From NCBI GenBank assembly GCA_030998225.1, contig JAPYXD010000738.1, positions 1,550,001 through 1,614,000 of the forward strand: a DNA stretch of 64,000 nucleotides. Reading direction: 5' to 3'. Of this stretch, positions 8,860 to 62,396 are shown piece by piece; position 1 is the first letter of the stretch; the number at the start of each line of letters is the position of its first letter. The notes under the pieces are model-generated. The model was given only the letters and a program-made list of their open reading frames with translations. It did not search any database and had not been told where the DNA came from. Both the position numbers and the translations under genes were made by a program. Origin of the DNA: Diplolepis rosae (taxonomy: Eukaryota > Arthropoda > Insecta > Hymenoptera > Diplolepididae).

Positions 8860-9531
8860 TCACGAATCTAATAATTTTAATAATGGGAAGTAAATTCTAT
8901 TTAAAGTAAATATGTCCTCCTTTTTGTTGATACTAAATTTGTTGCATTTTATATGAATCATCTCAGATGTTAGTCTTTTTTTATAATCAGATTCGTAATC
9001 AATAATTTTAACATGTTCCCAATCAAATTCGTGATTAAATTCAGCCCGATGTTTAAATACGATACATTCGCTATTTTTGTTGTTTTTATGTTCATTAATA
9101 CGAGTTTTTAGAGATCTTTTCGTTTCACCTATATATATGGCAGGACAGTTATGACACTTGAAGCTATAAACAATGTTAGTTTGTTGCCATTTTTCTGTGA
9201 AATCCTTACCTAATTTAATAATTGAATTTAAACTTTTTTCCACTAACGGAATCGTAGAAATGTTATATTTTTTTAAAATTTTGGATAATGTTATAAAATT
9301 ATTATTTGAAAAGGGAAGACAAACTTTTTGTTGGTATTTTCGTGGGCATAAAGAGTTATTACTAATGTTGGAATTGTCAGAAGAGTGATATTTAATTTTA
9401 TTCAAACGTTTTTCAATGATCTTACCAATGAAATTGATTGGATAATCATTGTTAATTAAAAGTTGTTTAACTTTTTTTAAATTGGTATGATGAAAGGATT
9501 CATGGGACAACAAAATCGCTCTATCTATCAA
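8860..9531 (-). pseudogene. Penelope-like element, GIY-YIG endonuclease part
   Basis: This is the C-terminal part of the element's polyprotein. After a linker of about 120 residues come the paired cysteines (FKCHNC, near residues 125-129) and the GIY-YIG signature AIYIGETKRS (131-140). The LKTRINEH block (141-148) provides the catalytic Arg and His. The nuclease nicks the target and primes reverse transcription. The frame is shifted by one relative to the RT part just upstream, and the junction falls in a run of seven A residues, so an assembly error or a single mutation explains the break. It ends 21 residues after the last conserved block, as is usual. Confidence 0.9.
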
Positions 9532-10532
9532 GTTGTATACAATATTTTTTTCTGTTGTAGTGGATGATTTGAAAAGTAATTGATAAATCTACCAGATGTA
9601 GTTGGCTTCTGGAACCAGTTAGTGATAATATGGTTGTCGCTAGAGATGAGAGTCATATCTAAGAAATTAATTGAATTGTTTTTCTGTAATTCGTGAGTAA
9701 ATTTTAAATTTTGATGATAGGAGTTAAAAGTATTGATGATTAACTCAATATGTTTTTTTTGTACACACAAAATGGTGTCATCAACGTATCTGTAATAAAA
9801 GAGGAGAGAGCAATTATGGTTATCTTTTAAAATTCGTAAGCAATCACTTTCCAAGTCATCCATTACCATGTCTGCGAACAGTGGTGAAATTGGAGAACCC
9901 ATGGGAGTACCAAAAATTTGTTTATAAATCTTGTCGTCGAAAGTAAAATATGTGTTATTAAAAAGAAATTTAGTACAATTAATAATTTCATTAAACGGAA
10001 TATTACAATTGTTATGAATATAATGACATCTACGCTCTAAACTCTCCAAAACCAAATCACAGGGTATATTAGTAAACAATGAACTAACATCGAGTGAGAT
10101 TAAAACATGATCATCGAGAAGGTTAACATTTGTTAATTTACTTTTTAGTTCGAAACTATTATTTATATGAGAGTTAGGGGCTTTTATAATCACTTTCAGT
10201 TCCTGATATATGATTTTGGCTAAAAAATGTGTAGGATTGTTAATCAACGAGATGATAGGGCGGAATGGCAAATCTATTTTGTGAATTTTGGGTAAACCAT
10301 AACATTTCGCTAATACAGTATTCGTTAAGGTGAGTTGGTTATTATGAAATTTGTGTTTTAAAAAATTGTTGTCATTGAGACCCTTAAGAACCTTGTGAGT
10401 GTTATCTTGCAACTTTTTTAGGGGATTTTTTTTTAATTGGAATGTAAGTAGAGGTGTCGGAAAGAAGGTTGAGCATTTTTGTATAGTAAGTAGAGTTTTG
10501 TAAGCATACCGTGACATTGCCTTTATCTGCAT
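9528..10532 (-). pseudogene. Penelope-like element, reverse transcriptase core
   Basis: The 334-residue frame carries the RT palm. LISLDVSSLFTNIP (motif A, Asp148) is followed by GTPMGSPISPLFADMVMDDLE (motif B region), YYRYVDDTILC (motif C, residues 247-256) and INFLDMTL. This block set is specific for Penelope-like RTs, which are close to telomerase. The RT copies element RNA at a nicked target. The first 30 or so residues are out of frame; real homology enters at about residue 31, where the upstream frame (10402-11004) overlaps. The catalytic aspartates are intact. Confidence 0.9.
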
Positions 10533-11004
10533 TTGTAAAGAAAATGTCCGGATTATTTTTTAAAAAAATTTTTGTGGTTTTTAATTTTTTGGAAAATATT
10601 CTATCTTCATTAGAAATATGAGATTGTTTCTTTAAATTATTATTAATATTGTCATTGACTTTTTTTCTAATTTCATTTTTGAGATTCTCTTGGATATCTA
10701 AAGAAATGAGGGACGACTCTAAATTCTTAATAGTGTCAATGACATTTTGTTTTGAAATTTTGTGCGAAATACTATGGTCAGGACCCAGGGAAGCAATGTC
10801 AATCACTTCGTTGGGTATAACTGTTTCAGTAAAATTCTTAACCCAGTCATCTTTTTTTAAATTACTGTGGTTATGTTGTTTGGATAAGAGTGAATTAAAT
10901 TTCTTATTATGTTTATCGTTACATATTTGTCGAATCGAGTTAAATTTTTGCTTACTAAGTTCAAAAAATCTTTCTTTAGTATTAGGAACCAAATCGGAGA
11001 ACAT
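10402..11004 (-). pseudogene. Penelope-like element, N-terminal RT region
   Basis: The frame has 200 residues upstream of the RT palm. It contains the conserved 'FFTNADKGNVTVCLQNSTYYTKML' type block that precedes RT in the family, with the ADKG core. It then runs out of frame at an A-rich stretch near 10430 and overlaps the next frame by about 130 bases. The rest is helical and Lys/Asn-rich. Together with 9528-10532 it forms one RT domain. Confidence 0.8.
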
Positions 11005-11122
11005 TATGTCTTTTTTGTTTTTTGAATTGACTTATTTAAAAATTCAATGTGAATATGCATATCTCTAATTTCTAAATTTAAAAGTTTCTTACAAAAATAC
11101 CTGTTTAATTTTTTAAAAACCC

Positions 11123-18548: not shown

Positions 18549-18680
18549 CTCATTTTATCTACCGGACCCGATATTCCCGTCGATGAGACTCTCACGGGCG
18601 TCGGCTGAGACGGCCGATGAAGATGTGCGACCGAGCATAAGGGGCGTATCACCTTTCGAGCAACAACGAGAGGCCAGTTT

Positions 18681-19541
18681 TTGGGACTGAACCGTTTTTC
18701 TCGGTATGAGGCGGATTTCAGGTCACTAAATTTGAACGGAGACCCAGTGCGAAGGACGCACGAAGACCAGGGCCAACATAACCAGCTCCCCGATAGTAGA
18801 GGAGCAAGAAACGACTTTTACCACGAGGATACAAGGTTGCCTGAACGTGAACGCATGAGTGGCTACCCGGAAAACCGTGGATTAGGGTTTACCAGCTCAC
18901 GGTTTGAAACCCAGCGAGAGATTCAGAATCTTAGCAGATTTCTATATGATTGGAAGATCTCTTTCAGCGGTAAACTTAGAGCTAGCGTAGAAGACTTCTT
19001 AACCCGTCTGGAGGAATGTCGAGGTATCACTCCCATAAGTGATGACGACCTGCTGAGAGCCCTGCCATTGTTATTGAAGGATGTAGCTCTATTGAGGTTC
19101 CGGATCAGCGATGATGAGTGGCGAAATTGGACCGAATTCAAGACGGCCTTTAGGGGAAGATTCGGCAACTATGACTTCGCAGCACGAGGCCGCGAACAAA
19201 TTGTCAACCGAACGCAAGGTGCGAGAGAAAGCATGGATTATTATTTGACCCACTTACAAAGATTGATTGCGATGCTAAGAGATAGAGTGCCGTTAGTCGA
19301 GCAATTGGATTGGGCTTATCGCGGATTGAGACCGGAGTTTAAAAGAGTGATCCCGAAGTTCGAATTCCGAGATTTTAGTGATGTGACCCAAATAGGTAAA
19401 AGTTGGGAAATGACGTGGGCAGCAGCCAGGGACTACCGAACTCGACACCACCAGAAAGTTCCTTCCTTCCCGAATTCGCGTATCGGGCGGAAACTACGCC
19501 AGCGGCGCATAAACCAACCTCGGTTTCGGCGATTTCCGTGA
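18681..19541 (+). pseudogene. gag: Gypsy Gag capsid domain
   Basis: The frame has 286 residues. Residues from about 95 to 235 follow the retrotransposon Gag (capsid) pattern: FSG-x-LRASVEDFLTRLEECR, then WRNWTEFKTAFRGRF and 'YLTHLQRLIAML...RGLRPEFK'. It would form the particle shell around the RNA. The last 40 or so residues are out of frame, because the next frame (19403-19948) takes over around 19445 by a one-base shift. It belongs to the same element as the zinc-knuckle frame that follows. Confidence 0.8.
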
Positions 19542-19948
19542 CAGCAACCCCTCAGAGAAATTCAAGAGGACCGCAACTCGGAAGCCGGGATGCCAAGCGT
19601 CAGGAAAACAAGAAGGGAAACGACATCAGGAACAAGGGTCACCCTATGGGATCCACAGGGGACAGACCTAAAATGAGTGAAGAACCCAGAAGTCCTAGGA
19701 ATTTTGGAAATACCGAGTCAGATCTTAAGATGGGGGTAGGTTCGAGACGTCCTAGTACGTCCGCTGAAAAGGCCCCTAAGGACTCTGGGACCGAGAAAGA
19801 TGTTATTTGTTTTCCGTGCGAAAAACCTGGCCACTTTCAAATAAGTTGCGCCCCACCGCGAAAAATAGCGTGTTACCGCTGTAAAAAGGAGGGCTACACG
19901 ATAAAAAATTGCCCTAATTGCTCGGGAAACGGGGAAAAGAAGCAGTGA
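19403..19948 (+). pseudogene. gag: Gypsy Gag nucleocapsid with two zinc knuckles, one damaged
   Basis: A basic, Pro/Ser-rich linker leads to two knuckles. The first, CFPCEKPGHFQISC, is intact (C-x2-C-x4-H-x4-C). The second, CYRCKKEGYTIKNC, has Tyr where the zinc-binding His should be (CAC to TAC), so it should not bind zinc. Nucleocapsid binds genomic RNA. The next frame starts around 19918 and leads to the protease. Confidence 0.85.
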
Positions 19949-20370
19949 GACCGGTATTCGCTGCCTTTCAACCTTCCGTGACCGAAGAAATGTCCGATTT
20001 AGGTATTAAGATTAGTATCAGATGCGCTTCGAAAGTCCCGGGCTCGCTAACAACTAAGACAGTTCTCGCAAAAATAGATATGCCAGGATATAGAGGCGTG
20101 AAAATGTATATCATCGACAAGTTCGACTCTGTAATTAGCGAGCGAATCATCAGTGGAATAGAGGACTATAAATAAATTGTTGAAGATCCCGGAAATTCAG
20201 AGGTTAACGATCGGGAAAAACCTCATGAGCTCCCGTATAGACAAGTAGATTTAAAGGATGTTAGCGACGAGCCCATGAATACCGAAAATAATAAGGAACT
20301 TTGGAGATCGGGTAAATAATTCGGAGCCGAAGAGCATAACCAGATCACTGTCCTAGATCAAGTACACAGG

Positions 20371-20787
20371 GTGGACGATGCTAAAAGATCTTCCAGTTTT
20401 AAGACCTTGGTAGAGAAGACAGGGCCAGACGCGGCTCCTTTAACTCCGAATAACTTGGGCGAAGTTATTGCGGAGGAGCCACCTCACTCGGACTCATTAG
20501 ATTTTGTTGAGGTTGAGTTCCGTCAGAGTGAGGGTCTGGAGACTGACTTTAATAGCGGCATCGTCCCTAACGACGAGGTTCGCGGTAGAATACATCTAGC
20601 CGTGGAGGTGGGATCGGTTACCCTAGATGCTTTGCACAACCCGGGATCAACTAGGACGTTTGTAAGAAGTAAAGTGGGTCAGAAGATTTTATACAGTATC
20701 CGGAAAGAGCTGGACAGGCCACATAGATATCGATCTATGCCAATGGATCTATGCAGATTATCGAGGGAAAAGTCGAGCTGCCTCTGA
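20371..20787 (+). pseudogene. pol: Gypsy aspartic protease, active site destroyed
   Basis: An acidic pre-protease region (residues 1-65) is followed by a retropepsin-like start: VEVGSVTLDALHNPGSTRTFV. The family has A-L-L-D-T-G-S-T-R-T-F here. This copy reads N-P-G instead of D-T-G, so the catalytic Asp is lost. The C-terminal half is out of frame and the next frame starts at 20751. The protease would have cut Gag-Pol. Confidence 0.75.
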
Positions 20788-21811
20788 CCAATGAAGAGGT
20801 AACTTGGCTTTGTGAGGTTAGATTTGCAAAGAACCTCGATAACGAGATGATCTTGGGGTTGGACGCTCAGGCTGAATTCGACATTTATTTCGCATCTAGG
20901 TTGAAGAAAGCCTTCATGCCTGACAATTCCGAAAGACACAACCCTTTAAAGACATGGTTGGTTGAAGAGGAGGGTTGCGGTGCCATCGCGGATTTGTCAG
21001 ATGACGAACAGGTAAGGCTAAAAGAATTGGTAGACAGGAATCATCTGGCAACGCACCACATAGACGTTAAGGGGCAGCCTCCCATTAAGCAACGTTACCG
21101 AGTAGTGTCTCCAAAGGTCCAAGAGGCCATGTACCAAGAGGTAGATCGGATGTTGGCCGAAGGCGTTATTAAAGAATCTTTCAGCGAATGGTCAACACCG
21201 ATTGTCATGGCGAAAAAGGCAAATGGCGGCTACCGCCCGTGCCTCCATTCCGGAAACTGAACGCTGTTTCGAAAAAGGATGCCTATCTGATACCGTATAT
21301 GTCGGACATCCTGAAGCAGTTGGAATCGTGGAAGTACATCTCGACGATAGATTTAAGTTCAGCGTTCAACCAGATTCCTTTAGACGAAGCGTGTCAGGAG
21401 TACACGGCGTTCACAGTACCGGGCAGGGGGTTATTTCAATTTGTGAGGATGCCCTTCGGAGTTTCGAACGCCCCGGCTACCTTTCAGAAGTTAATAAATC
21501 GTGTGATAGGCCCGGAACTTAGACCGCACGCGTTCTGTTATCTAGGTGATATTATTGTCGTTACCGAGATATTCAAAGAGCACTTTAAGTGGCTGGAAGC
21601 GGTTTTGGACAAGATTACACAATCCAACTTAACTGTGAACCCGGAAAAGTGCGAGTTTTGTCGATCCAAGGTGAAATATGTGGGTTATGTTGTAAAAAGA
21701 GATGGTTTGAGTGTTAACCCTGAAAAGACGGAACCGATTTTGTCCTACCCGGCCCTGAAGAATATTAAGCAGTTAAGGCGTTTTATAGGCTTAGCTTCGT
21801 GGTCCCGGTGA
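20751..21811 (+). pseudogene. pol: Gypsy reverse transcriptase, catalytic Asp lost
   Basis: Two overlapping frames (20751-21260 and 21188-21811) form one RT. The first has the end of the protease (MILGLDAQAEF), the linker, and HHIDVKGQPPIKQRYRVVSP with EGVIKESFSEWSTPIV. The second has the palm: STIDLSSAFNQIPLD (first Asp), FVRMPFGVSNAPATFQ, and YLGDIIVV at the place of YLDD. The first Asp of motif C is therefore Gly (GAT to GGT), and polymerase activity should be gone. The one-base shift lies near 21245. The connection domain continues to KYVGYVVKRDGLSVNPEKTE and IKQLRRFIGLASW, followed by a stop where Tyr-Arg is expected. Confidence 0.9.
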
Positions 21812-21844
21812 TTCATTCCGGAATTTGCTGTTGTTTCTGAGCCA

Positions 21845-22420
21845 TTGACTCGGTTATTTAGGTCTAATGTCAAGTGGAATTGGGGCGAGGAGCAACAACA
21901 AACGCTAGAATCGTTGAAAGGAGCCTTGACGAGCGCGCCAATCTTATTGCGCGCCAAAGATATTGGAGTGAACCCCTTCCACCTACAGACCGACGCGAGT
22001 AACACCGGTCTAGGAGTTGTCTTGACCCAAGTGCAAGATGGTGAGGAGTGCGTGATCTCCTTTCCGAGTCGTACTCTGCTATCGCTCGAGAGAAATAACT
22101 CGGTAACCGAAAAGGAGTACCTGGCTCTCGTGTGGGGAATCCACAATTTTCGGGAGTACCTTGGAGGCTTTTCCTTCAAGGTCATAACCAACCATAGCAG
22201 CCTCAAATGGCTGCACAACTTGCAGAATCCCACGGGGAGACTAGCCAGGTGGTCCCTAGAGCTTCTAGAGTATGACTTCGAGATTATTCACCGCAAAGCA
22301 GCGCTCCATCACTTCCCAGATGCCCTGCCGAGAAACACAGAGGATGGACAGGTACTGATCTCATCCGCCTGTGATACAAGCGACTCTTGGTATAGGCGTC
22401 GCGTCGCAGCTGTCCTGTAG
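21845..22420 (+). pseudogene. pol: Gypsy RNase H, catalytic Asp replaced by Asn
   Basis: The frame contains FHLQTDASNTGLG (first Asp), the TEKEYLALVW helix (Glu) and VITNHSSLKWLHNL. The last normally reads T-D-H, so the third acidic residue is Asn. The final FPDALPRN block holds the last Asp. It removes RNA from RNA:DNA hybrids during reverse transcription; with Asp to Asn it should be inactive. The frame continues the RT after one stop codon and then runs out before the integrase zinc domain, which is frameshifted. Confidence 0.88.
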
Positions 22421-22622
22421 AGGCCCTGGAGCTTCCTAGATTGGAATGGTGGGAGACCAGAGGCTGTATAGGCATAGGCCAAACGGGATGACCGATCCAC
22501 TCGGCCCGGACCTTGAAGCGTGAAAACTTGTGGTACCCGAGGAGCAGAGGTTAGATGTATTAAAAGAGGTTCACTCGAAACCACAAGCGGGCCATTTGAG
22601 GGTCGAGAAGATCTAACATCGG

Positions 22623-23285
22623 TTGTCGCTTCGCTACTACCGGCCAGGGATCTACGTCGATATGGCGAAGTTTGTGAGACAATGCGACCCCTGCCAGAGG
22701 TCCAAGGTCGAACAAGACCGAGCGGCTGGCTTTATGGGGCAGCGCATTGTCGAGCAACCCTGGACGGTGGTGGCGAGCGACGTGATGGGCCCATTTCCAC
22801 GCAGCAAGAGTGGTCATAAATACGTCTTGGTTTTCCAAGGCCTATTTACGAAATGGGTGGACGTGGTGATAATCAGGACTGCCAACGAACCCACGATCAA
22901 ACGACGGTTTGAAGACCTGGTCGTGTCGCGTTGGGGTGCCGCGGAAGTTGTCCATACGGACAATAGCACCGAGTTCTCTAACCGCCTGATTGAGCAGACG
23001 TGCAAGGGCCTGGTTATTGTCCACACCACTTATCCGGTATATCATGCCCAGGCAAATCCCACGGAGAGGGTCAATCGAGTCTTAAAGACCATGATTGCGG
23101 CCTTTCTCAGAAACGATCATAGGGATTGGGATTGGCACTTGCACGATTTCCGGTTCGCTTACAATAACGCGGTTTACGGATCCCTTAAGGTAACCCCGGC
23201 GTTTTGGAATTTCGCCAGGGAGCCCTTGCATTACCCTTCGTTGCGCAACGAGGTAGATGTGAAGCAGCAGCGGTGTGTTCCGTAA
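22623..23285 (+). pseudogene. pol: Gypsy integrase
   Basis: The 220-residue frame starts inside the zinc-binding domain (YYRPGIYVDMAKFVRQCDPCQRSK gives the C-x2-C pair). It then has the DDE core: ASDVMGPFP (first Asp), VVHTDNSTEF (second Asp, where the family has D-N-G-T-E-F) and HAQANPTERVNRVLK (Glu). All three acidic residues are present. Integrase joins the cDNA to the target. The zinc-domain His pair lies in a shifted frame upstream. The frame ends at 23285, while the C-terminal module continues in another frame (23481-23603). Confidence 0.9.
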
Positions 23286-46123: not shown

Positions 46124-46430
46124 TTTTTACATTGTTTGGAGAACACACGGTATATTTTTAAACAGCATAACAATTGTACTAATACTATGTATTAATTTAC
46201 AGATCGTCGAAAGGTTGTCGAAAATTCCCTCCGAAAAATGGCTTAATTTTACAATATATATCAAATAGTTTGTAGTCCGACGGTGAGCCCTAATAGGACT
46301 CCCTTGACGCTCAGGGAGTGTCTTCTTAAAAAGTGATATTATTGGATCTAGTCGTAGCGTACAACACTATGTACAACTAATAGCTTTATTGAAACATTAG
46401 TCTTAAATTTGTCACTCGCATGGGTTGAAA

Positions 46431-47501
46431 ATGGAATCGAAAATCGGAACGCTTCGATATTCGTGCAAATTTCCAAACTGCAATTGCAGGTATTATTCTC
46501 CGGTAACTGATCCCTCTTATAAAAACAAACGTTTTCACACTTTCCCTAAGCAGAAAAGTTTAAGGAAAAAATGGAATCAAGTGTGTAATATTGAGGAAGA
46601 AACTAATGTTGACCATATGTATATCTGTTGTGATCACTTCCTCAATTTACATTATAGAGATCGGAATTGTGTCAGGTTAACTTGGGATGCTGCACCTTGC
46701 TTCACTGAGAAAAATGTTGAGCTTGACGTTACTTTGTCTACTGGCGGAAAAAACGAAAACAGTATAATTCTTCAAAATGAAATTGAAAATATGAACTGGG
46801 ATGAGCAAAATCTTGATCTTAGTGCAAATTTAAGCGCAGTACAATCAGTTGAAATTGGAACATCTGCAACAGTGGAAATTGTAACCTATGAAAATGTAGG
46901 CGCAGTAGAATCAGTTCAAATTGAAACACCTGAAACAGTAGAAATTGAAACTTCCGGAAGGGTACAAAATCTAAATTTAAATATAAATTCCATTCATTCA
47001 GACAGGAAAGATGATCAAAATCTTTACAGATGTGCATCGGTACAAAATCACAATTCTGATTTGAATTCTATTATTCAGCAAAATGAAACTGAAATTGATA
47101 ATATTTTGAATGAGCATTCTTACTGTGCTGCACCTACAGACCGATACGACCCTTTCGAAGGCCAACCTGCTTTATTAGAAGACGTTAAAGAAATCTTGTC
47201 CATTTCTGAGCAGCCAGTAGATGATACTAAGATTCTTAATGATATTTCTAGTAAAGAAAATGTATTTCCAGTGCATATTAAACGTAAAAGGAATGCGAGA
47301 AATTTAAATAGCTTCATAAGTGAAAGTGGTGCATCGAAATCGAACCGTACACCTCGCGAAGAAGCAATGTATAAAATTCATCGGAAAGTAACTGCAAAAT
47401 TATGCAAATTGCAAGAAAAATTAAAAAATCAAAGAAATGTAGTTCAGCATCTTGAATACTTGCACAATCAACATTTATTTGCGGCTATTGAAAAGATTTA
47501 A
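46431..47501 (+). CDS. THAP-domain protein, N-terminal part of the P-like transposase
   Basis: ATG at 46431 opens a 356-codon frame; a TTG two codons earlier is in frame but unlikely. Residues 12-70 form a THAP (C2CH) zinc finger: C12 and C17, the FHTFPK motif at 35-40, W48, then ICCDHF with C66 and H69. In P elements the THAP domain binds the subterminal sites. A long acidic, repeat-containing linker follows, then a coiled coil (about 305-356, KVTAKLCKLQEKLKN, VVQHLEYLHNQ), as in P transposase, which dimerises there. The frame stops at 47501. The transposase continues in the -1 frame, and the sequences join smoothly at GAAAAGATTTAAAC. Confidence 0.85.
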   Translation: MESKIGTLRYSCKFPNCNCRYYSPVTDPSYKNKRFHTFPKQKSLRKKWNQVCNIEEETNVDHMYICCDHFLNLHYRDRNCVRLTWDAAPCFTEKNVELDVTLSTGGKNENSIILQNEIENMNWDEQNLDLSANLSAVQSVEIGTSATVEIVTYENVGAVESVQIETPETVEIETSGRVQNLNLNINSIHSDRKDDQNLYRCASVQNHNSDLNSIIQQNETEIDNILNEHSYCAAPTDRYDPFEGQPALLEDVKEILSISEQPVDDTKILNDISSKENVFPVHIKRKRNARNLNSFISESGASKSNRTPREEAMYKIHRKVTAKLCKLQEKLKNQRNVVQHLEYLHNQHLFAAIEKI

Positions 47502-50107
47502 ACGAGATAACAAAAAATTTCATCCATTCGCAATTAAGAAACTGCTCTCAAAAACCGCCAGCCAGAAGGTGGACTGTTAATGACAAAATATTTGCTCTAT
47601 CTATTTTTAAGCGAAGTCCGAAATTGTACAGACACTTATGCTCGATTTTTATCTTGCCATCAACCAGATTATTGAAAGCTATCTCTGCTAAAATACCTTT
47701 TGAACCCGGTATTAATATAGCCGTCGTGCAAGAATTAAAACGGAAATGTAAATGTTTAAAAAAATTAGATCGAAATTGTGTACTTCTAATGGACGAAGCA
47801 CAGTTAGCTGCCGAGTTATCATATGAATCTCACAACCAAAAAATAATTGGATTTGAAGATCTTGGTCATTTAGGTCGAAGTATCGGTCAAGCAAATCATG
47901 CTTTAGTGTTTATGGTCCGAGGTGTTAGAAAAAAATGGAAACAAGTAGTTGCGTATTATTTTACGAAAAACACAATATCTACAGATAGCTTAAAAGCCTT
48001 GATTGTTAAAATAATATCTGAGCTGCAAGAGTGCGGTTTTAATGTTATGAGTACTGTTTGCGATCAAGGGCCCACTAATAAAGCTGCTGTACATCAATTA
48101 TGTGATGAAACTGCTAAAATACTTGAAGACGAAAAAATTGCAAACGTTAACTCAGCCTCGGACTCTTCTGAAAATGTAGAATTGCTACAAAAATCGGAAG
48201 TTTCTTTTTTCCTTGTCAATGAACAGCCCGTGGTATTAATATTTGATGTTCCACATCTGTTGAAATGCTTACGAAATGCGATGCTTAAGTGTGACGTAGT
48301 TTTTGACACTGACAAAGTAGCTAAATTTGAATATATTCAGACCGTTTTTGAACTTGATCAAAGAAAAGAATTTAAAACTCTCAAAAATTTAGAAAAAGAA
48401 TATTTCGATTTTAAACAATCGTGGGTTAAAATGAAAGTACGAATTGCTGCTGCTCAGTTAAGCAGCTCAGTTGCAAGCGAGATTAATACGTATGTTAGGC
48501 ATGGAAAACTCCCAGCAGAGGCAATCTTTACGTCTGAATTTATTCACCTCATTGACACCTTATTCGATTATTTAAATGGTTCAACTATTAAGCCGGACAA
48601 TATAAACAAAAAATTGCGATGTTCGGTATCTAATCAAACTTTTCATGTACAATTTTGGACTGATATGATAGACCATATATCCAAATGGCGTTTTTTAGAA
48701 AATGGTAAAGACGTGACGAACCGATTTCACTTTATACAAGGTTGGCTAATCACTATAAGATCAATGATTCATATTTGGACCAATGTCAATAGACTTGGGT
48801 TTTCCCATCTAAATCCACGTAATTTTAATCAAGATCCACTGGAAAATTTGTTTTGTCTTGTTAGACAACATTCAACTGACCGATCCCCCACGTGTCAACA
48901 TTTCACTGGAATTTTGAAAACAGTTGTACTCACAAATTTAAGTTTACCAGAAAGCAAGGGAAACTGTGAAAATGACGATTGTTCTACATTAGGATCATTA
49001 AGACACTTTGTAGAATCCGATACGACAGATGAAGATACCCTCAGTCCGAATATTGAGGAAGATCAAACTCAAGTAATACAACTAAACAGTGTGCAGGGAG
49101 AAAATAAAGAAGGTTTAGGACTTGAAGAGTTTGCTAATTCATTGCTAATAGATCTACCAATTAAAAACTGCATCAGTTGCAAATCTAGTTTATTTTCGTT
49201 TGTACCAACTGTTCAAGATATTTTACTTCAAAATTGCGACACTGATTATTCTTCGACAAATGCGAGTGACAAAGTTAAAGTACTAATTAAGAACATAAGC
49301 GATAAATTGAAATCTTTCCTCGATATAAGGGGGCACGTTTACCCAATCGAAGATATTTTCATATCTGCTTTCAGAAAAGAAATAACTAATGACATCACTT
49401 TTTGTTGTGAACATTTACCGGAAAACTTGGTCATTAACAAATGCGTTAAACAAATAATTTACGATTATATTCAATCAAAAAAACCGAAAAATATTCCAAA
49501 AGAACATAAGAAAAGTGCTAAACAGCTAAATAAAATGCAAGTGTTCGCCAAAAGTTCATTAAGTCACGTTCAAAAGACAAAATTTGATTGCAGAAATAAA
49601 AACGATACAAATCTTAAAATAGAATCCAATACAAAAGAATCGCGGCCTGCTAAACCTCACATTAATTCTATAAAAATAGGAAATGTTAGTGCAGAATATA
49701 TACAGCAACTTAAAAGCTATGCGAATCCAAATTCTTCTATTCAACCAAAAATTACTAAACTTCGTTATGATAGTATTCCAAATTCTTATGTAAAACGCAA
49801 AGTATTAAGTCTTCGCAATGATAGTATTGAAGTTAAAAGAAGAGCGAATAAAATCTCAAAAGAAAATATTGATTCGATTGATATTGAAAAAAAATGTAAA
49901 AAAAGAAAAATAGTTCAATTCTCAAATGAAAACCACGAAAACCTCGTTGAAGTACAGACGCATAATATTCAAAGCAAGGTAAAACCGATAAATCGGTCAC
50001 GAAGTAGAAAACAAAAAATTATTTTTCTTCAAGACGAAAATTTGTCTTTCCCGCAGGTTGAAAACGAATCTTCGATCAATTTAAAATCTGAATTTAAAAG
50101 ATTTTGA
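47489..50107 (+). CDS. P-type transposase, catalytic part
   Basis: The frame opens after a TGA at about 47486 and runs to 50107; the first methionine at 47624 is not the biological start. The homology begins with the ARRWTVNDKIFALSIFKRSP block. Numbered from Met47624, the RNase-H-fold triad is Asp57 (LLMDEAQ), Asp147 (TVCDQGPTN) and Glu407 (NQDPLENLF). Between them lie the GTP-binding insertion region and FDVPHLLKCLRN. A long Lys/Asn-rich tail of about 300 residues is unusual for the family. In P elements the enzyme cuts and inserts DNA with GTP as cofactor. No internal stops are present. The only break is the -1 shift from the THAP frame, which could be a mutation, a sequencing slip or a frameshift site. 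Confidence 0.85.
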
Positions 50108-55431: not shown

Positions 55432-56058
55432 TCATAGGTCACATTTAACCATTCTGTGTGTTAATGTCATAGTCGAGCTTAGGTATAATATGTCATATTC
55501 ATTATAAACTTTACATTTTTCTCCCTCCAGCTTTTTAGGTGTTAAAATTTCTTCGTGTTTTACAAATGCTTCGCATGCTATATCTAAATTCATAAGTTGT
55601 AATGGTATTATGAAATATCCGTATTGTATAGGGATGAACGTTTCGCGTTGTAATGAAAATGAAGAATTGTGACATTTAGCTTTTGTCGTTTTTCTTAATA
55701 ATGTAGCTTCACAAGAATTGCTATCTCTTATTATTATATTAGGTTGTTTTCTTTTACAAATTTTGTATTCAGATATTGATTTACAAGTCATCTGTTTTAG
55801 TCTTTGTATTTGATTATATGTATGGCCATGTTCAGGAATTAAGGAGAAATAGATTTTTTGGTATAAGTGTGGTATTGGGATCAAATGTAATGACGTTCCC
55901 TCTTCTTTTTCTAATATCGGAATCTCTAGTATGTAAGTAAAGAGTCCTCCTATGACGGCTACTGATAATGTACTTGTATCGAATATGTGTTGATAATTTT
56001 CTTCAGTATCATCAAAGTGGTATCTTTTTCTCTGGTTGTTTTCGAGTTATTTAGTTTT
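55432..56058 (-). pseudogene. env: Env, C-terminal part (F1-like subunit)
   Basis: This minus frame continues the env after a break near 56050 and is open to the stop at 55432. It holds the conserved hydrophobic strand region before IPHLYQK, then cysteine-containing segments, as in the ectodomain of errantivirus fusion proteins. No strong membrane anchor is visible before the stop, so the transmembrane end seems missing or shifted out of frame. In insects such proteins are related to baculovirus F proteins and allow spread between cells. This copy is not functional as it stands. Confidence 0.7.
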
Positions 56059-56063
56059 TTCTT

Positions 56064-56795
56064 TTACATCGCCGGTGTTAGTATTTGAGGATCTATAATC
56101 CCGTGTTTTTCATCGTTAATTGCGTTTATCGCCATATCGATATCTTGGTTTATTTCATCTATTAAGACAGCCGCTACTACTAGCTTACTGTTTATAAAGT
56201 TTTCTTGTATAGCTTTATTAATTCCATTGCTTGAATTCCTTGCTATCGCTCTTACCTGATTTTCCTGCAACATTAACGATACATGATTCGCTGAGGATGA
56301 ATCCAGGATCAACTTAAGTATTTTAGTATGGTTGGTCAAGATGGAAGCAATATTTTTATTATCTCTATATAAGTTGTCGAATTTGCAATTAATTTGAGCA
56401 AGGTCTCCTTCATTTAAGGTTCCAAATAATGTTTTAGAGATGTCTCCGACAAAGTTGGCCAATCCTCGTTTATTGCGCTGTTTTCCTAATAGCTTTGTTA
56501 ATATATAATTTCGAGATATCAGTCTATTGTACCTTCCCCGAATGAGTTCTATTTCATGTTGGGGTAGGCACTTTTTAATGCATGCTTGTTCTGCTATTGA
56601 TATTGTTTTGTCTATTGCGCTGATTCTTTCCCTGTTATTTGTCATATTGAATCCAACTATTAGTCTCCAAGTTTCGTGGTATAGATGAATTTTAGTTTCC
56701 TCTTCGATGTATATATTTCCTTCAATATCGTTGATGGTGTAGTTACCCCTAACGATCGTTAGTAGATGTGGCAGGAAGGTCGTCTTCACTATCAT
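56064..56795 (-). pseudogene. env: Env, N-terminal part with furin site and fusion peptide region
   Basis: The frame has 243 residues. Residues 1-106 correspond to the outer subunit, with paired cysteines (about 72-76). RNKR at 107-110 is a furin-type cleavage site, followed by a Gly/Phe-rich fusion-peptide-like segment. Then comes a helical region with repeated hydrophobic spacing. It stops at 56064 and the rest is in another frame. In the family env is made from a spliced RNA; the frame overlaps the end of integrase by about 46 bases, which is usual. Confidence 0.8.
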
Positions 56796-57003
56796 CTGAA
56801 AAATAAGGTAGGCACTGGTCTATATGTATCTTCAATATTTTTTCCTTATTCTGAATTACAATATTATTATTGTCTAGTAAATCAATTATCTCAAAACGGC
56901 CTTTCCAGGATTGTTCTAATTTATTCTTTTTTGTGTTGTTCATTATTTTTACTTTATCCTTAATTTTATAAATGGGGTGTTTTCGTGTGATGTTCTCGTC
57001 CAA
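56749..57003 (-). pseudogene. pol: Integrase C-terminal segment
   Basis: The 84-residue frame reads 'HPIYKIKDKVKIMN', then LEQSWKGRFEIIDLLDNNNI and IHIDQCLPYF. The W-K-G-R/P-F-E-I-I pattern is the integrase C-terminal (GPY/F-like) module of errantiviruses. It is one base out of frame with the core, with the shift near 57000. Its end overlaps the env start. Confidence 0.8.
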
Positions 57004-57545
57004 TCTTCTTTTTTTCCATTTTCAACTGTATATTTCCTTTAGCTTTTCTTACAGTATCTTCGTGTTTCTTTTTCGATTTTCTTATCAAGTGTTGGTGGGT
57101 GAGATTGGTGGATGTTCTTAATGTCGATGGAACATTGGGATTTCTTCCAAACGTTAACTCGTATGGTGTGAATTTCGTAGTTTGATTTGGCGTAGTATTT
57201 ATAGTAAAATTTATTATTTTTATGTTATCGTCCCATTCTCTATTATTTTCAGCTATACTTGTTTTGATAAGGTTTAATAACGTAGTGTGCATTCGTTCTA
57301 TATTGCCATTTGATTGTGGATGGAATGATGTAGTTTTTATATGTTTTATGTTTAAAGTTTCTTCAAATTGTGTTACCAGTTCTAATAAGAAATTGGTTCC
57401 TTGGTCTGTTAAAATATTCTTAGGTGCTCCGAATGTGTAAATGTAGTGATCTAAGAGTGCTTCTACTATAGTATTCGATGTTTCGTCTTGCAGTGGTATT
57501 AGCACGGTGTAACGTGTTAGTCTATCCTGAATGCTTAGTATACAT
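56966..57545 (-). pseudogene. pol: Integrase core, second Asp and Glu part
   Basis: From the insertion junction the frame reads CILSIQDRLTRY, then GAPKNILTDQGTNF (second catalytic Asp) and SFHPQSNGNIERMHTTLLN (Glu). The first Asp block lies on the other side of the insertion, at about 59447. The codons join exactly at the duplicated ATGT, which shows that the core was continuous before the insertion. Confidence 0.9.
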
Positions 57546-57847
57546 TGAAACGGTCACGATTCACATCAGCTGACATAGCCCACGACATACTAGCGACATA
57601 GTACACGCGGCGCAGTAGGAACGCAGGGGTAGTGGTACCGACAGTCTCCGCTAGGCTCGCAGCGCGAGCCTACCCACTGTAGACCTGAAACCGCGTGTCG
57701 ATAACGGAGCACTCATAACTCTCAGCAGTATCTCCAGCTAGGGTTCCACCACCCATCGCCACTACAGTCAGCGACAACTGGAGTACTTCAAACACCTTCG
57801 GTGAAATAAAGAATCAACCACGAAGAGAGCATTGGTAATTATATTGT

Positions 57848-58106
57848 AGAGTGACTCTGGGTACGCTGCCCTAGGCTCCAGACCACTCTTAAATTTTTTG
57901 AGATGTCAAATCGTTTTCTGGGTACGCTGCTCCAGGCTCCAGAAAACGATAATTAATTTAACAACACACCCGCTAGGTACGCTGCCCCAGGCTCTAGCGG
58001 AGGTGTATGATCAAAAAACCACCTCTCTAGGTACGCTGCCCCAGGCTCTAGAAAAGTGGTTCTGTAGGATACCTCTCTAGGTACGCTGCACCAGGCTCTA
58101 GAGAGG
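57848..58106 (+). repeat. Array of five hairpins with one shared 17-base loop
   Basis: Hairpins lie at 57848-57889, 57910-57950, 57966-58006, 58017-58061 and 58072-58106. Each loop is GTACGCTGCCCCAGGCT with at most two changes, always 17 bases. The stems differ in sequence but pair: ATCGTTTTCTGG with CCAGAAAACGAT (12 of 12), CCTCTCTAG with CTAGAGAGG (9 of 9), and ACACC-CGCTAG with CTAGCG-ga-GGTGT. The others are AGAGTG-ac-TCTGG with CCAGA-c-CACTCT, and AACCAC...TCTAG with CTAGA...GTGGTT. A constant loop with covarying stems points to a structured RNA or DNA signal. The function is unknown. Confidence 0.9.
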
Positions 58107-58179
58107 CTAGGTAGCAAATTAAAGGTATGGTATAGGATAAAGATTCGCGATCAATAACCAATATGTATCTGAAGAGTCG

Positions 58180-58988
58180 CCATATTGGCTCTTAAGTGCC
58201 TACCAACATTAATATATACTTAAGCGGGATAACGTCGGCACGAAACGCGATAGATTGTCCGTGAGACGCCATATTGGCTCCTATGTAACCAACGACCAAC
58301 AAACGTCCATGATTTAAAATCATAGTCTCTTAGCATCAATTGATAAAGTAGAAAATTTATAAATTTTTTATTAATGCTTGAGCACATCATCTGGATGGCC
58401 AAGTAAACTTAGCTTATTCATTAATAACTTTATCATTGTTGCTAAACAAATATTTTCTTAGAAAATATCTTAAAGGGGAACTAACCCCGCCATATTGGCT
58501 CCTATCGAGCACTCGACTGAAATGCACTCGTGCATATGAGTATTTAATTTGCATATTTGGCGAAATTGCTTAACAGTATTAAGTTTACAAAAGAATTAAT
58601 TAAACATTTATTAACTTATTAATAATTTAAGAAGTAATTACTCCAAACTTCGATTAATAAAGATCAAGTTCACAGTTTTGTTAATGCTTGTGCACATCAT
58701 CTGGATGGCCAAGTAAACTTAGTTTATTCATTAGTAGCTTTATCATTTGTTATTGATTATAATAAATATCTTCTTAGAAAAAAGAAAAAAGGGGAATTGG
58801 CCCCGCCATATTGGCTCCTATTGAGCACATGACTGAAGTGTATCTGCACCTAATATTCTTGCTTATGAAGGAGAATTAATCAAACTCTTAAGATCGTCAA
58901 ATGCGTCTATGAAATAATTTGCAATAAGATATACCTGTGTTATAGCGAAACTAGTATTAAGAATTTAAAGAATAGTTGCCATATTGGC
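58180..58988 (+). promoter_or_regulatory. Five GCCATATTGGC(T/C) sites
   Basis: GCCATATTGGC followed by TC occurs at 58180, 58268, 58489, 58805 and 58978, all in the same orientation. The core GCCAT is the binding word of YY1/Pleiohomeotic-type zinc-finger proteins. Regular same-strand copies in an LTR suggest a regulatory array; binding is inference. Confidence 0.55.
58355..58850 (+). repeat. Internal direct duplication (two copies of ~175 bp)
   Basis: 58370-58530 and 58680-58845 share 'TTAATGCTTG(A/T)GCACATCAT', 'CTGGATGGCCAAGTAAACTT', the GGGGAA...CCCCGCCATATTGGCTCCTAT block and 'GAGCAC..GACTGAA'. They are tandem copies about 315 bases apart. Confidence 0.85.
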
Positions 58989-59404
58989 TCTTCGAGTTGA
59001 AATAATTGTTATAAACTATTCTCTGGGTAATTGCTCACTAGATAAAACGATTGTGATTTATAAAATAATTAAAGAAGCCATTAGATAGCGAAACTCGCGA
59101 ATATAAGCGCCAGTTAGCAATTGTTAAGATAGATCTGCCTCTCTATATAGACTGTATAGTTTTAGTTTGGCCCACAACCAATAAATGCATATGCTCCAAG
59201 ACCAAATAGGGAAATTACAAATGCGGTTAAGATTATAAAGGACTGATTTCAGCTTAGGTCATAGAATTCCAAAGACTGTTAAATATTTATTTATGTATGA
59301 TATTATTCGCCAATTTACTGAATAAATGTCTTCTGAATAATATAAACCCTTTGAGTTCATTTAATTAATCATAACTAATATTAATAAATAAACGAACTCT
59401 TTCA

Positions 59405-60276
59405 ACATTTGTTTCTCTTCTTGTTTATCGGGAGGGGTCCAAAGATGTCCAACGATATTTTTTCGTTTGGGGCAAGTGATATATCTGGGATTATACTCTC
59501 GCCTTGATTTTCTACTCGTACTGTTCTTAAAGTTGACAAATTGGACAGGATTGCACAAATTTTTTTATATCGTCCAATCCATGCCATAGTCCTATTTTAC
59601 GGGCTTTCTCTATAGTATTTTTTTCCCCAAGGTGTGTGGAATTGGCTTCTAACATTATCTTCCTTTTTTCTTCTTTGGTTAATTCTCTGGTTAATGAAAA
59701 GCATACATGAAGACTTAGGCGAGGATAGTGGTTTGACAAACATTCTATCAATTCTTGAATACTCTCCTTTTTAATTGGGGTGAACAACGGATCCCCGAAA
59801 ATTAGTCTTATCATTGTCAGTTTTTTGTTTTCTATTTTTTCTGTAATCCAGGTGAGTTTTGTCAACCATTCTTCTTCGTTATATGGCAGCATATCTTCCT
59901 TTTTTATGTCTTTCCATAGTTTGCCTATGGCATTTGGTTTTGTTTTGACTTTCCCATAGGATGGGTTTAGTCTCCATCCCATGAAATCGCTGTATACGGA
60001 ATTACTGGGATGGCTCGTTGACGGGGTTTCTTCTTCTATCGAGGCTTCCCGTATTTTTTTGTGAGGAATTTTGATTTTTTCTTTGTCTTCTAAAATCCTA
60101 TCTTCTATTACCGTTGATTTGGGATTTTCTGTAGGTTTTATTTCTTGTAAATTGCTTTCTATGTCTTCCAGCATTTTTTTACTCGTTTTCCCGCTGTCTA
60201 AGTTTAATTCTGCGTTTGCTATCTTCTGTCTAAGGATATCGTTATCGTTTATTGGAAATAATCGAGAGAGAGACAA
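59405..60276 (-). pseudogene. pol: RNase H-integrase spacer, integrase zinc domain and first catalytic Asp
   Basis: The frame 59527-60276 carries an acidic, Lys-rich spacer and then the integrase N-terminal domain: LWHGLDDIKKFVQSCPICQ gives the C-x2-C pair. At the first His pair only one His is kept (STHLGEKN; the family has G-x-H). A one-base shift near 59527 moves the frame, after which ISLDIFGPLP holds the first catalytic Asp (codon at about 59447). The sequence then meets the ACAT duplication and the insertion. The spacer between RNase H and integrase is much longer than in gypsy elements without env. Confidence 0.8.
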
Positions 60277-60570
60277 TCTGCTACTTTATTATCCTTTGTT
60301 TTCACGCATTCAATATCGTAGTCGTATTCCTCGATACGTAATCTCCATCTTAAAAGTCTTGAGCTTGGGTCTTTTACATTATGTAACCATACAAGGGCTT
60401 TATGGCCAGTTTGTAACTTGAATTTATTACCTAATAAATATTCTTTTAGTCTTTTCATCGCCCAAACTATTGCTAAGAGTTCTTTTTCCGATGTAGTACA
60501 TTTAGTTTAGTTTGATACGTCTGTGGTTAAAATAAATTGTTCCTTAAAGTCGGGGAATTTCAATTTTCTA
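60249..60570 (-). pseudogene. pol: RNase H, catalytic Asp replaced by Gly
   Basis: The frame 60249-60458 has the second half of RNase H: FKLQTGHKALVWLHNVKDPSSRLLRWRL and DNKVADCLS. The family has T-D-H-K-A-L, so the catalytic Asp is Gly. The first half (ILTTDVSN with Asp, SEKELLAIVWAMK with Glu) is present upstream but broken by in-frame stops near 60505 and 60580. Confidence 0.8.
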
Positions 60571-61136: not shown

Positions 61137-61988
61137 TCGTAATTTGTTTCCCTTTTTTGGTAATATCCAAAGTGGGGAGTTATATGGGGACTGTGATTCC
61201 CTAATGACTTCTTTGTTAATAATTTATTAGTTTCTTCTAGCGAAAATTCTCTGTGTTTATCTGATAGCCTATGTGGTATTAAATTTATGATTTTTCCAGA
61301 TTTTAATGTTATTTCATGTTCTGTCAGATCTGTACAGGGTAAGGGCTCCGTATCGATCGAGAATACTTCTTGGTATTGCGCTATTAATTTCTCGATAATT
61401 TCTCTTTGTTCTGGTTCTAAGTGACTTAGTTTTGATGATTGCAATATTTGTAATGTTCCCGGGTGTATGTTTTCATTATATCAGAGTGCTGTTTCCTCTT
61501 TTTCACTAACTTCAAAGATCGATTTATATTTTTCTAGGTTATTTTTTACTGGTAGTGGATTCAAGATATTATTTCGTATTGGGATTTTTACAAATCCTTC
61601 ATTAACTCTGTAAATACCATCAGAGATATTTTCCTGATCCAAAATTAGGATGTCCTGATGCACTTCTTCTTTTATTTTTATTCTACATATTTTTTCTGAG
61701 TTGGGCGAAACGAATTCCCCATCTTCGTATATTGGAAGTTTTATTTGATCTATTATTAGATACTCTGGTGTTATAGAGTATCTGTCGTATTGACAGATTT
61801 TAAAAATTTATTGTGAGTATTCCTTCCTTGTGTAATAGAAAATCATCTGGTACTATATAAAAAGTTTGTTCTTCATCAAAAAAGTTTAGGGTGGTTCTTC
61901 GTTTTGATATATGTACATCTTTTCCCATTGAAAAACTTTTCTCGCATTCTTTTCTCTCATCCTTTTTTTCCAGAGTTTTTTCTTTCAT
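61127..61988 (-). pseudogene. pol: Protease end, linker and RT N-terminal part
   Basis: Three short frames are collinear. 61800-61988 holds a basic Lys/Glu-rich start and an FYIVPDDFLL..GIL strand that matches the end of a gypsy protease. 61481-61663 is a linker with ISDGIYRVNEGFVKIPIRN. 61127-61444 holds the RT lead (EREIIEKLIAQYQEVFSIDTEP) and 'TEHEITLKSG' with 'IPHRLSDKHRE'. The D-T-G active site is not present; the sequence is cut near 61990, where a mariner fragment begins. Confidence 0.7.
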
Positions 61989-61998
61989 TATATTATTT

Positions 61999-62396
61999 AT
62001 TTTCGCATCGGATTGTTACTGGTGATGAAAAATGGATCCATCACGACAACCCCAAGCGCAAAAAATCATGCGAAACCCGGCCAACCAGCAAAATCAACGG
62101 CAAAGCGGAATATCCATGGTGCGAAGGTAATTCTCTGTATTTTGTGGGATCAGAAGGGTGTGCTGTATTATGAGCTGCTAAAACCGGGTGAAACCATCAA
62201 TGGAGAACGCTACCAAACACAATTAATCCGTTTGAAGAGAGCAATAGCCGAAAAACGCCCGGAATATGCGACCAGACATGAGGCAATAATTTTCCATCAT
62301 GACAACGCTCGGCCCCATATTGCGCAGTTCTTTTGGGATGGAATCCACAAATTTCCAGAAAGATGGGAAAAAGTCATAGCTTCAGATGGGCAATAA
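61999..62396 (+). pseudogene. Mariner transposase, C-terminal half with internal deletion
   Basis: A shifted frame at the start has the TGDEKW motif. From 62013 the main frame runs KPGQPAKSTAKRNIHGAKV, LLKPGETINGER and HHDNARPHIA (second Asp). Directly after it comes QFFWDGIHKFPERWEKVIASDGQ, which is the C-terminal end of the family. The segment with the third Asp (the S-x-D-L-A-P-S-D-Y block) is deleted. It cannot be active. Confidence 0.88.

Follow-up and report, generated by a model that had tools for sequence, protein, structure and literature searches.

Five hairpins with one loop

What keeps the loops of five neighbouring hairpins almost identical when their stems have little in common, and to what kind of element do such hairpins belong? 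The preliminary description of the window (the whole 64-kb stretch of DNA analysed here, positions 1550001-1614000 of contig C410) had reported five hairpins in about 260 bases with a common 17-base loop, and this is borne out. The loop, GTACGCTGCCCCAGGCT, occurs five times on the plus strand, starting at 57861, 57922, 57977, 58031 and 58081. Each copy is 17 bases long with zero or one mismatch; the "one or two" substitutions first reported are too many, as no copy has two. No further copy was found in the window at up to three mismatches, for which the chance mean is 0.02.

All five hairpins are on the plus strand. Hairpin 1 (57849-57888, loop 57861-57877) consists of an inner helix of five pairs and, beyond a bulge, an outer helix. 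Hairpin 2 (57910-57950, loop 57922-57938) forms 12 of 12 Watson-Crick pairs, hairpin 3 (57964-58006, loop 57977-57993) 11 of 13, hairpin 4 (58017-58061, loop 58031-58047) 12 of 14, with two C.A, and hairpin 5 (58072-58106, loop 58081-58097) 9 of 9. The stems of 12, 9 and 11 pairs that had been called perfect or nearly so are accordingly 12/12, 9/9 and 11/13. Identity among the five copies is 93.5% in the loop, 32-34% at stem positions 5-14 and 28-31% in the spacers. Stem identity is about that of the spacers: the stems differ as much as unrelated sequence does, and still each arm finds its partner, just as originally claimed. The pairing of each arm with its own partner ranks best among 120 arm permutations, with both strands tested. 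The 280-nt array region folds more stably than 200 of 200 shuffles on either strand. For single hairpins, 0 to 23 of 200 shuffles fold equally well, the 23 belonging to the plus strand of hairpin 5; not all five are thermodynamically exceptional when taken singly. A covariance model built from 30 relatives matches only these five hairpins in the window at E ≤ 1.

The array lies in a solo LTR

The array (57849-58106, +) is located inside a solo LTR of 1859 bp (57546-59404, + as the sense strand), which begins with TGAAAC, ends with CTTTCA and is flanked by the 4-bp duplication ACAT on the left (57542-57545) and right (59405-59408). Similarity to many other copies likewise ends at its first position. 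The surrounding DNA encodes, on the minus strand, an integrase core fragment (56966-57553, Pfam rve), whose frame extends a few bases into the LTR, and the integrase zinc-binding part (59527-60285, Pfam Integrase_H2C2). The integrase frame becomes continuous once the insert and one ACAT are removed in silico. The TG..CA ends, the ACAT on both flanks and the restored frame together identify the insert as a solo LTR. The original assignment of the array to an LTR element therefore stands, with the correction that the LTR is solo and nested in the integrase of a different gypsy-like element.

The orientation of the LTR was obtained from two-LTR relatives. Among the loop matches listed, at least five pairs of arrays lie on the same strand about 6-8 kb apart (contigs C313, C374, C375, C376 and C383). 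Along 944 bp the compared LTR parts of the C376 pair do not differ, which makes at least this insertion a recent one; the other pairs are 92-99.8% identical over the longest match. The C376 element is bounded by the target duplication AGGT, with TTGGCGCCCGAACAGGGACTC directly after its 5' LTR, an 18-nt site that we take to be the primer site for tRNA-Lys found also in HIV, and with a purine-rich stretch ahead of its 3' LTR; primer site and purine tract were read in this one pair. A reverse transcriptase frame, recognized by eye, runs in the direction of the hairpins in all three pieces read (C376, C383 and C313) of the five pairs. The primer site of C376 and the reverse transcriptase on the hairpin strand make the plus strand the sense strand. 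The family thus has the features of an LTR retrotransposon: TG..CA ends, a target duplication (ACAT in the window, AGGT in C376), paired copies around a primer site, a reverse transcriptase and a purine tract.

Within the LTR, the array lies 0.3-0.6 kb from the start. Judging by motif positions, TATATA at 59144-59149 (+) is a possible promoter box, a second TATATA being at 58213, and AATAAA at 59321-59326 (+), one of seven in the LTR, is a possible poly(A) signal. These would put the promoter and the poly(A) site downstream of the array, which would then belong to U3 and sit close to the 3' end of the genomic RNA.

The same LTR contains five copies of CCATATTGG (58180, 58269, 58490, 58806 and 58979, all +), mostly as GCCATATTGGCTC, a motif that we regard as CArG-like. 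It is present in 2-5 copies in 14 loci (L089-L102) and in 0-1 copies in the eight A2-type loci of that set. The LTR also has two direct repeats of 160 bp that are 83% identical (58366-58524 and 58676-58840, +). Like the LTR of the window, the C376 element (about 1362508-1371743) apparently sits within the pol of another gypsy-like element, the flank being judged by eye. Beside the interrupted pol in the window are two frames (55432-56819, -) that by eye may be of the envelope type and that have no family in Pfam. A mariner-type transposase fragment (Transposase_1; 61932-62396, +) adjoins the nested region. Elsewhere the window contains P-element/THAP-type transposase frames (46407-50107, +), the closest named relatives of the P-element-type protein being beetle proteins (Callosobruchus, Tenebrio, Coccinella and Zophobas); GIY-YIG domain frames adjoining a reverse transcriptase-like frame (8860-11031, -), presumably a Penelope-like element; and a second, GC-richer gypsy-type element with gag, reverse transcriptase and integrase frames (18621-23285, +).

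Genome-wide distribution of the arrays

A scan of the 757.7-Mb genome (428 contigs) for the loop, which had been proposed as a check, found 611 matches with at most two mismatches, compared with 13 for a reversed-pattern control. Arrays were then analysed at 81 loci: 60 grouped by eye among about the first 100 of the 611 matches; nine of 30 more loci obtained by similarity to the array of the window, the rest being mostly repeats of places already included; 11 further places; and the window itself. The 81 loci contain 443 candidate loops, of which 391 with at most three mismatches were kept and 52 dropped.

The arrays fall into families with differing stems. Family A, to which the window belongs, has up to five hairpins, A2 and B up to six each, C four to six candidates, and others up to eight. 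The fetched arrays have 2-8 candidate units, compared with five in the window. Loop positions 10 and 11 are variable and the other 15 are 91-99% conserved in 371 loops of 17 nt, a figure raised by the manner in which loops were selected. The four bases on each side of the 443 candidates are most often CTGG/CCAG (167), followed by CTAG/CTAG (79), CTGG/CTAG (37, with one G.U pair) and TTGG/CCAA (30). One locus (L030, G000:C154:8911650-8912600) has eight candidate hairpins with several diverged loops and is possibly an older relative. Two others (L014, G000:C13, and L032, G000:C170) have one and the same sequence, in which three loop-like motifs come with poor stems and which shows no resemblance to the LTR of family A.

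One alternative is that the hairpin itself is mobile and spreads by copying of its loop, as has been suggested for mitochondrial double-hairpin elements. The number of hairpins does vary among LTR families, and among the part of the 611 places that was read there are a few (L014 and L032) with loops outside any LTR similar to that of family A. Against this, all loops of an array have one orientation in 30 of the 30 loci compared, and array positions match along related LTRs. A mobile hairpin, offered as the alternative in the preliminary description, is not supported by these loci, and we consider it extremely improbable.

Pairing and covariation of the stems

Pairing was assessed on 35 hairpins chosen by their loop and their mutual dissimilarity, blind to pairing, with the four bases adjacent to the loop excluded. 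The own arms of these dissimilar stems give a summed score of 164, compared with a mean of 65 and a maximum of 104 for swapped arms (20,000 permutations). Taken singly, 14 of the 35 stems are above the 95% point of swapped arms and three score 0.5 or less. For covariation, 30 ungapped hairpins were used that had been preselected for at least 9 of 12 paired arm positions. This preselected set scores 0.393, compared with 0.168 for shuffled arms (none of 500 reaches 0.393) and 0.075-0.171 for slid arms. Ten of its pairs have changed on both sides, a number that 42 of 500 shuffles also reach. The covariation check that had been called for therefore came out positive, both against the shuffled and slid controls and in the comparison of own with swapped arms.

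Within families the signal is different. Two Watson-Crick types that differ on both sides occur at 7 of 72 pairs in B (1-2 when slid), at 5 of 65 in A and A2 combined (0-2 when slid), at 1 of 64 in A (0-1 when slid) and at none of 59 in A2 (0-1 when slid). Unrelated stems thus covary strongly, and stems within the narrower families weakly. Variants were further divided into private (found in one copy) and shared (in at least three copies). Shared two-sided Watson-Crick variants (A 1, A2 0, B 3, A+A2 5) are fewer than shared one-sided variants that break a pair (A 6, A2 7, B 9, A+A2 17).

Selection on the loop

The comparison of private with shared variants was made separately for loop, stem and spacer. 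A dead copy is free to mutate, and a lineage that is still jumping need not be. The private/shared counts are 16/0 in the loop, 43/14 in the stem and 31/13 in the spacer for family A (21 copies); 31/1, 64/28 and 36/32 for B (25 copies); 22/0, 44/14 and 60/38 for A2 (14 copies); and 32/0, 74/45 and 35/61 for A+A2 (35 copies, a set that reuses the A and A2 copies). Loop positions 10 and 11, tallied apart, give 6/1 in A, 7/4 in B, 7/1 in A2 and 9/6 in A+A2. The loop differs from the spacer with p = 0.013 in A, 3e-06 in B, 9e-05 in A2 and 9e-12 in A+A2, and the stem from the spacer with p = 0.65, 0.047, 0.079 and 0.0002, respectively; the variants behind these values are non-independent, were counted without a tree and in A include both LTRs of one element. 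The A and B loci were mostly identified through a perfect loop, which favours intact loops; the A2 loci were found through similarity of the whole array. Changes in the loop are common as private variants and zero or one is shared per family, unlike in the spacers, which indicates that the loop is under purifying selection. In the multiplying lineages it is frozen, in copies after their insertion it is not; the stems are much less constrained.

Could the pairing have arisen without selection, through tandem duplication of the unit and replicative template switching that keeps the arms complementary? Template switching can create and repair stems without selection, according to the available part of PMC8794818, and private two-sided Watson-Crick changes do exist in the arrays (one in A, three each in A2 and B). 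They are far outnumbered by private one-sided changes that break a pair (28 to 1 in A, 26 to 3 in A2 and 39 to 3 in B), so stem repair in single copies is rare. A neutral origin also leaves the loop unexplained, as private loop changes are common and shared ones nearly absent. Template switching may have helped to form the stems, and it does not explain the loop; as a full account we find it improbable. Selection for a folded signal of the LTR element, the suggestion with which the preliminary description had begun, is supported by the recurrence of the arrays, the pairing of differing stems, their covariation and the rarity of loop changes in multiplying lineages.

Fold of the repeat unit

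On the sense strand the consensus folds into a stem, followed by a 3-nt bulge, three further pairs and a loop of 6 nt. The sense strand and the other strand have consensus energies of -11.6 and -0.7 kcal/mol when the rows are chosen counting sense-strand G.U as pairs, -7.0 and -5.8 with a strand-neutral choice (34 hairpins), and -5.6 and -1.0 without selection (57 hairpins). Among 270 distinct hairpins, the sense strand is the more stable one in 184 and the other strand in 83, with three ties; their wobbles (63 G.T and 51 C.A) have no strand polarity. The preference for the sense strand is modest, and folding of the minus strand is almost as good. Sixteen hairpins at 11 loci belong to a second loop class, GYACGCCACC(C/T/A)AGGCT. 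It replaces the U.G of the upper helix with C-G, shortens the loop by one base and keeps the sense fold; among eight of these hairpins that were folded, some of them identical, seven take the same form and one is distorted.

Two other structural models were rejected. An apical triloop (CUG/CAG) has a mean pair probability of 0.19-0.20 on the sense strand, compared with 0.54-0.58 for the GCY/GGC helix (222 hairpins), and is also broken by the second loop class; on the minus strand the triloop form is likelier (0.55-0.57). A minus-strand RNA, on which the C.A mismatches of the window would be G.U pairs, was dropped because the two-LTR element makes the plus strand the sense strand and because the polarity is gone over 270 hairpins.

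That both strands fold would also fit an element acting as DNA, in which the loop would be a protein-binding site of an enhancer or insulator in U3, comparable to the repeated sites of other LTRs, and the arms a by-product or cruciforms. U3 is the usual place of transcription factor sites, and CCATATTGG, another short motif, recurs in the same LTR. Binding to double-stranded DNA, however, gives no reason for arms that are unrelated but complementary, and we rate this explanation as very improbable.

Function of the array

We propose, with a probability of roughly 0.6, that the array works as a cis-acting RNA element and belongs to the U3 of a Ty3/gypsy family with Osvaldo-like structural features, where it would serve as a multivalent platform for protein binding. 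The constant bulge and loop, the free but paired stems, the repeated units, the place in U3 and the purifying selection all point to such an RNA-protein platform. The unit would be a bulged hairpin with a free lower stem ending in CYRG/CYAG, a 3-nt bulge YAC, the pairs GCY/GGC and a loop of 5-6 nt. The array is presumably transcribed and folded in vivo, so that the 3' end of the genomic RNA would present a multivalent surface to one sequence-specific RNA-binding protein, which may read the bulge and the loop. As a first guess, carrying about half of the weight of this explanation, the platform would export or stabilise unspliced genomic RNA in the manner of the CTE and RTE; packaging would rank second.

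The partner might instead be the element's own Gag, and the array a packaging or dimerisation signal. Packaging signals usually lie in the 5' leader, whereas the array lies in U3, and any spliced RNA with the same 3' end would carry it too. A constant loop across several subfamilies would nonetheless fit a co-evolving Gag partner, the array would be part of the genomic RNA, and dimerisation of retroelement RNA through hairpin loops is known, for example in Ty1 (PMC5454406, from the part of the article at hand). We regard a Gag-bound signal as a possible but doubtful explanation.

A broader version of the proposed platform seems to us evenly balanced between true and false. It holds that the unit, with the core GYACGCYRC(N)NCAGGCU, is an undescribed RNA-protein recognition module, of which retrotransposons gain and lose interchangeable units (2-8 candidates per array) and so tune a platform in the 3' UTR. 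The stems would drift with pairing as the sole demand, and several LTR families of one genome would keep the module because it recruits a single host or Gag protein.

To our knowledge, most cis-acting RNAs described in animal retroelements come from vertebrate retroviruses and a small number of mouse elements. With its several hundred loops and dozens of stems unrelated to one another, this natural repeat family would distinguish the parts that a protein may read, bulge and loop, from those that need only pair. It makes the export, stabilisation or packaging of the genomic RNA of insect LTR elements a directly testable question, for which the array, with five natural aptamers, would be a ready-made affinity tag.

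Comparison with known elements

No Rfam family matches the window at the gathering level; below that level one match falls in the rest of the LTR (E 2.8) and three weak ones fall within the array (E 2.2-4.4). The tRNA scan of the window found none. Public sequence collections yielded only matches that were taken for chance: one in a bacterial coding region that by eye resembles a metallo-beta-lactamase fold (L001), one without pairing arms (L002), a single copy in GC-rich DNA, whose complementary flank is short and imperfect (L003), and two in GC-rich coding DNA that is phage-like by eye (L004 and L005). A 31-base piece of the LTR had no match in these collections, and the 18 pattern matches of the integrase fragment include no relative. 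A literature search, with subscription literature and repeat libraries outside its scope, found no report of such a hairpin array. The array would be a retroelement cis-acting RNA, which is a known kind of element, and an array of this form is apparently undescribed.

In structure the host element resembles the Osvaldo lineage, which includes Woot of Tribolium and has LTRs of 997-2055 bp, a tRNA-Lys primer site and mostly 4-bp target duplications (PMC3286476, in the part consulted). The LTR of 1859 bp, the 4-bp duplication and the Lys-type primer site agree with this, a putative assignment by structural features. The accessible part of PMC3286476 mentions no hairpin array in that lineage, in which respect the family here differs.

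As RNA, the array resembles the RTE and the CTE of type D retroviruses, both retroelement cis-acting RNAs of several stem-loops. These too are placed near the 3' end of the genome. The minimal RTE of mouse transposons consists of four stem-loops that interact with RBM15 (PMC4588045, from an excerpt). Unlike either, the array described here consists of repeated units that share a constant bulge and loop and differ freely in their stems, in the U3 of an insect-type gypsy LTR.

The single unit recalls HIV-1 TAR, which has a 3-nt bulge on the 5' side, a short upper stem and a 6-nt loop. The likeness is in bulge, upper stem and loop size, the sequences being compared through Rfam only; TAR is single and located in R, whereas the units here are repeated and in U3. 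Iron-responsive elements have the loop CAGUGN with a bulged C. The loop of the array differs from this in composition, and in Rfam no iron-responsive element family matches the array at E values up to 10. In overall design, however, the closest counterpart is the 3' UTR of the transferrin receptor mRNA, where a row of iron-responsive elements with a constant loop and differing stems is read by one protein; the array of the LTR has the same plan with another loop and another bulge.
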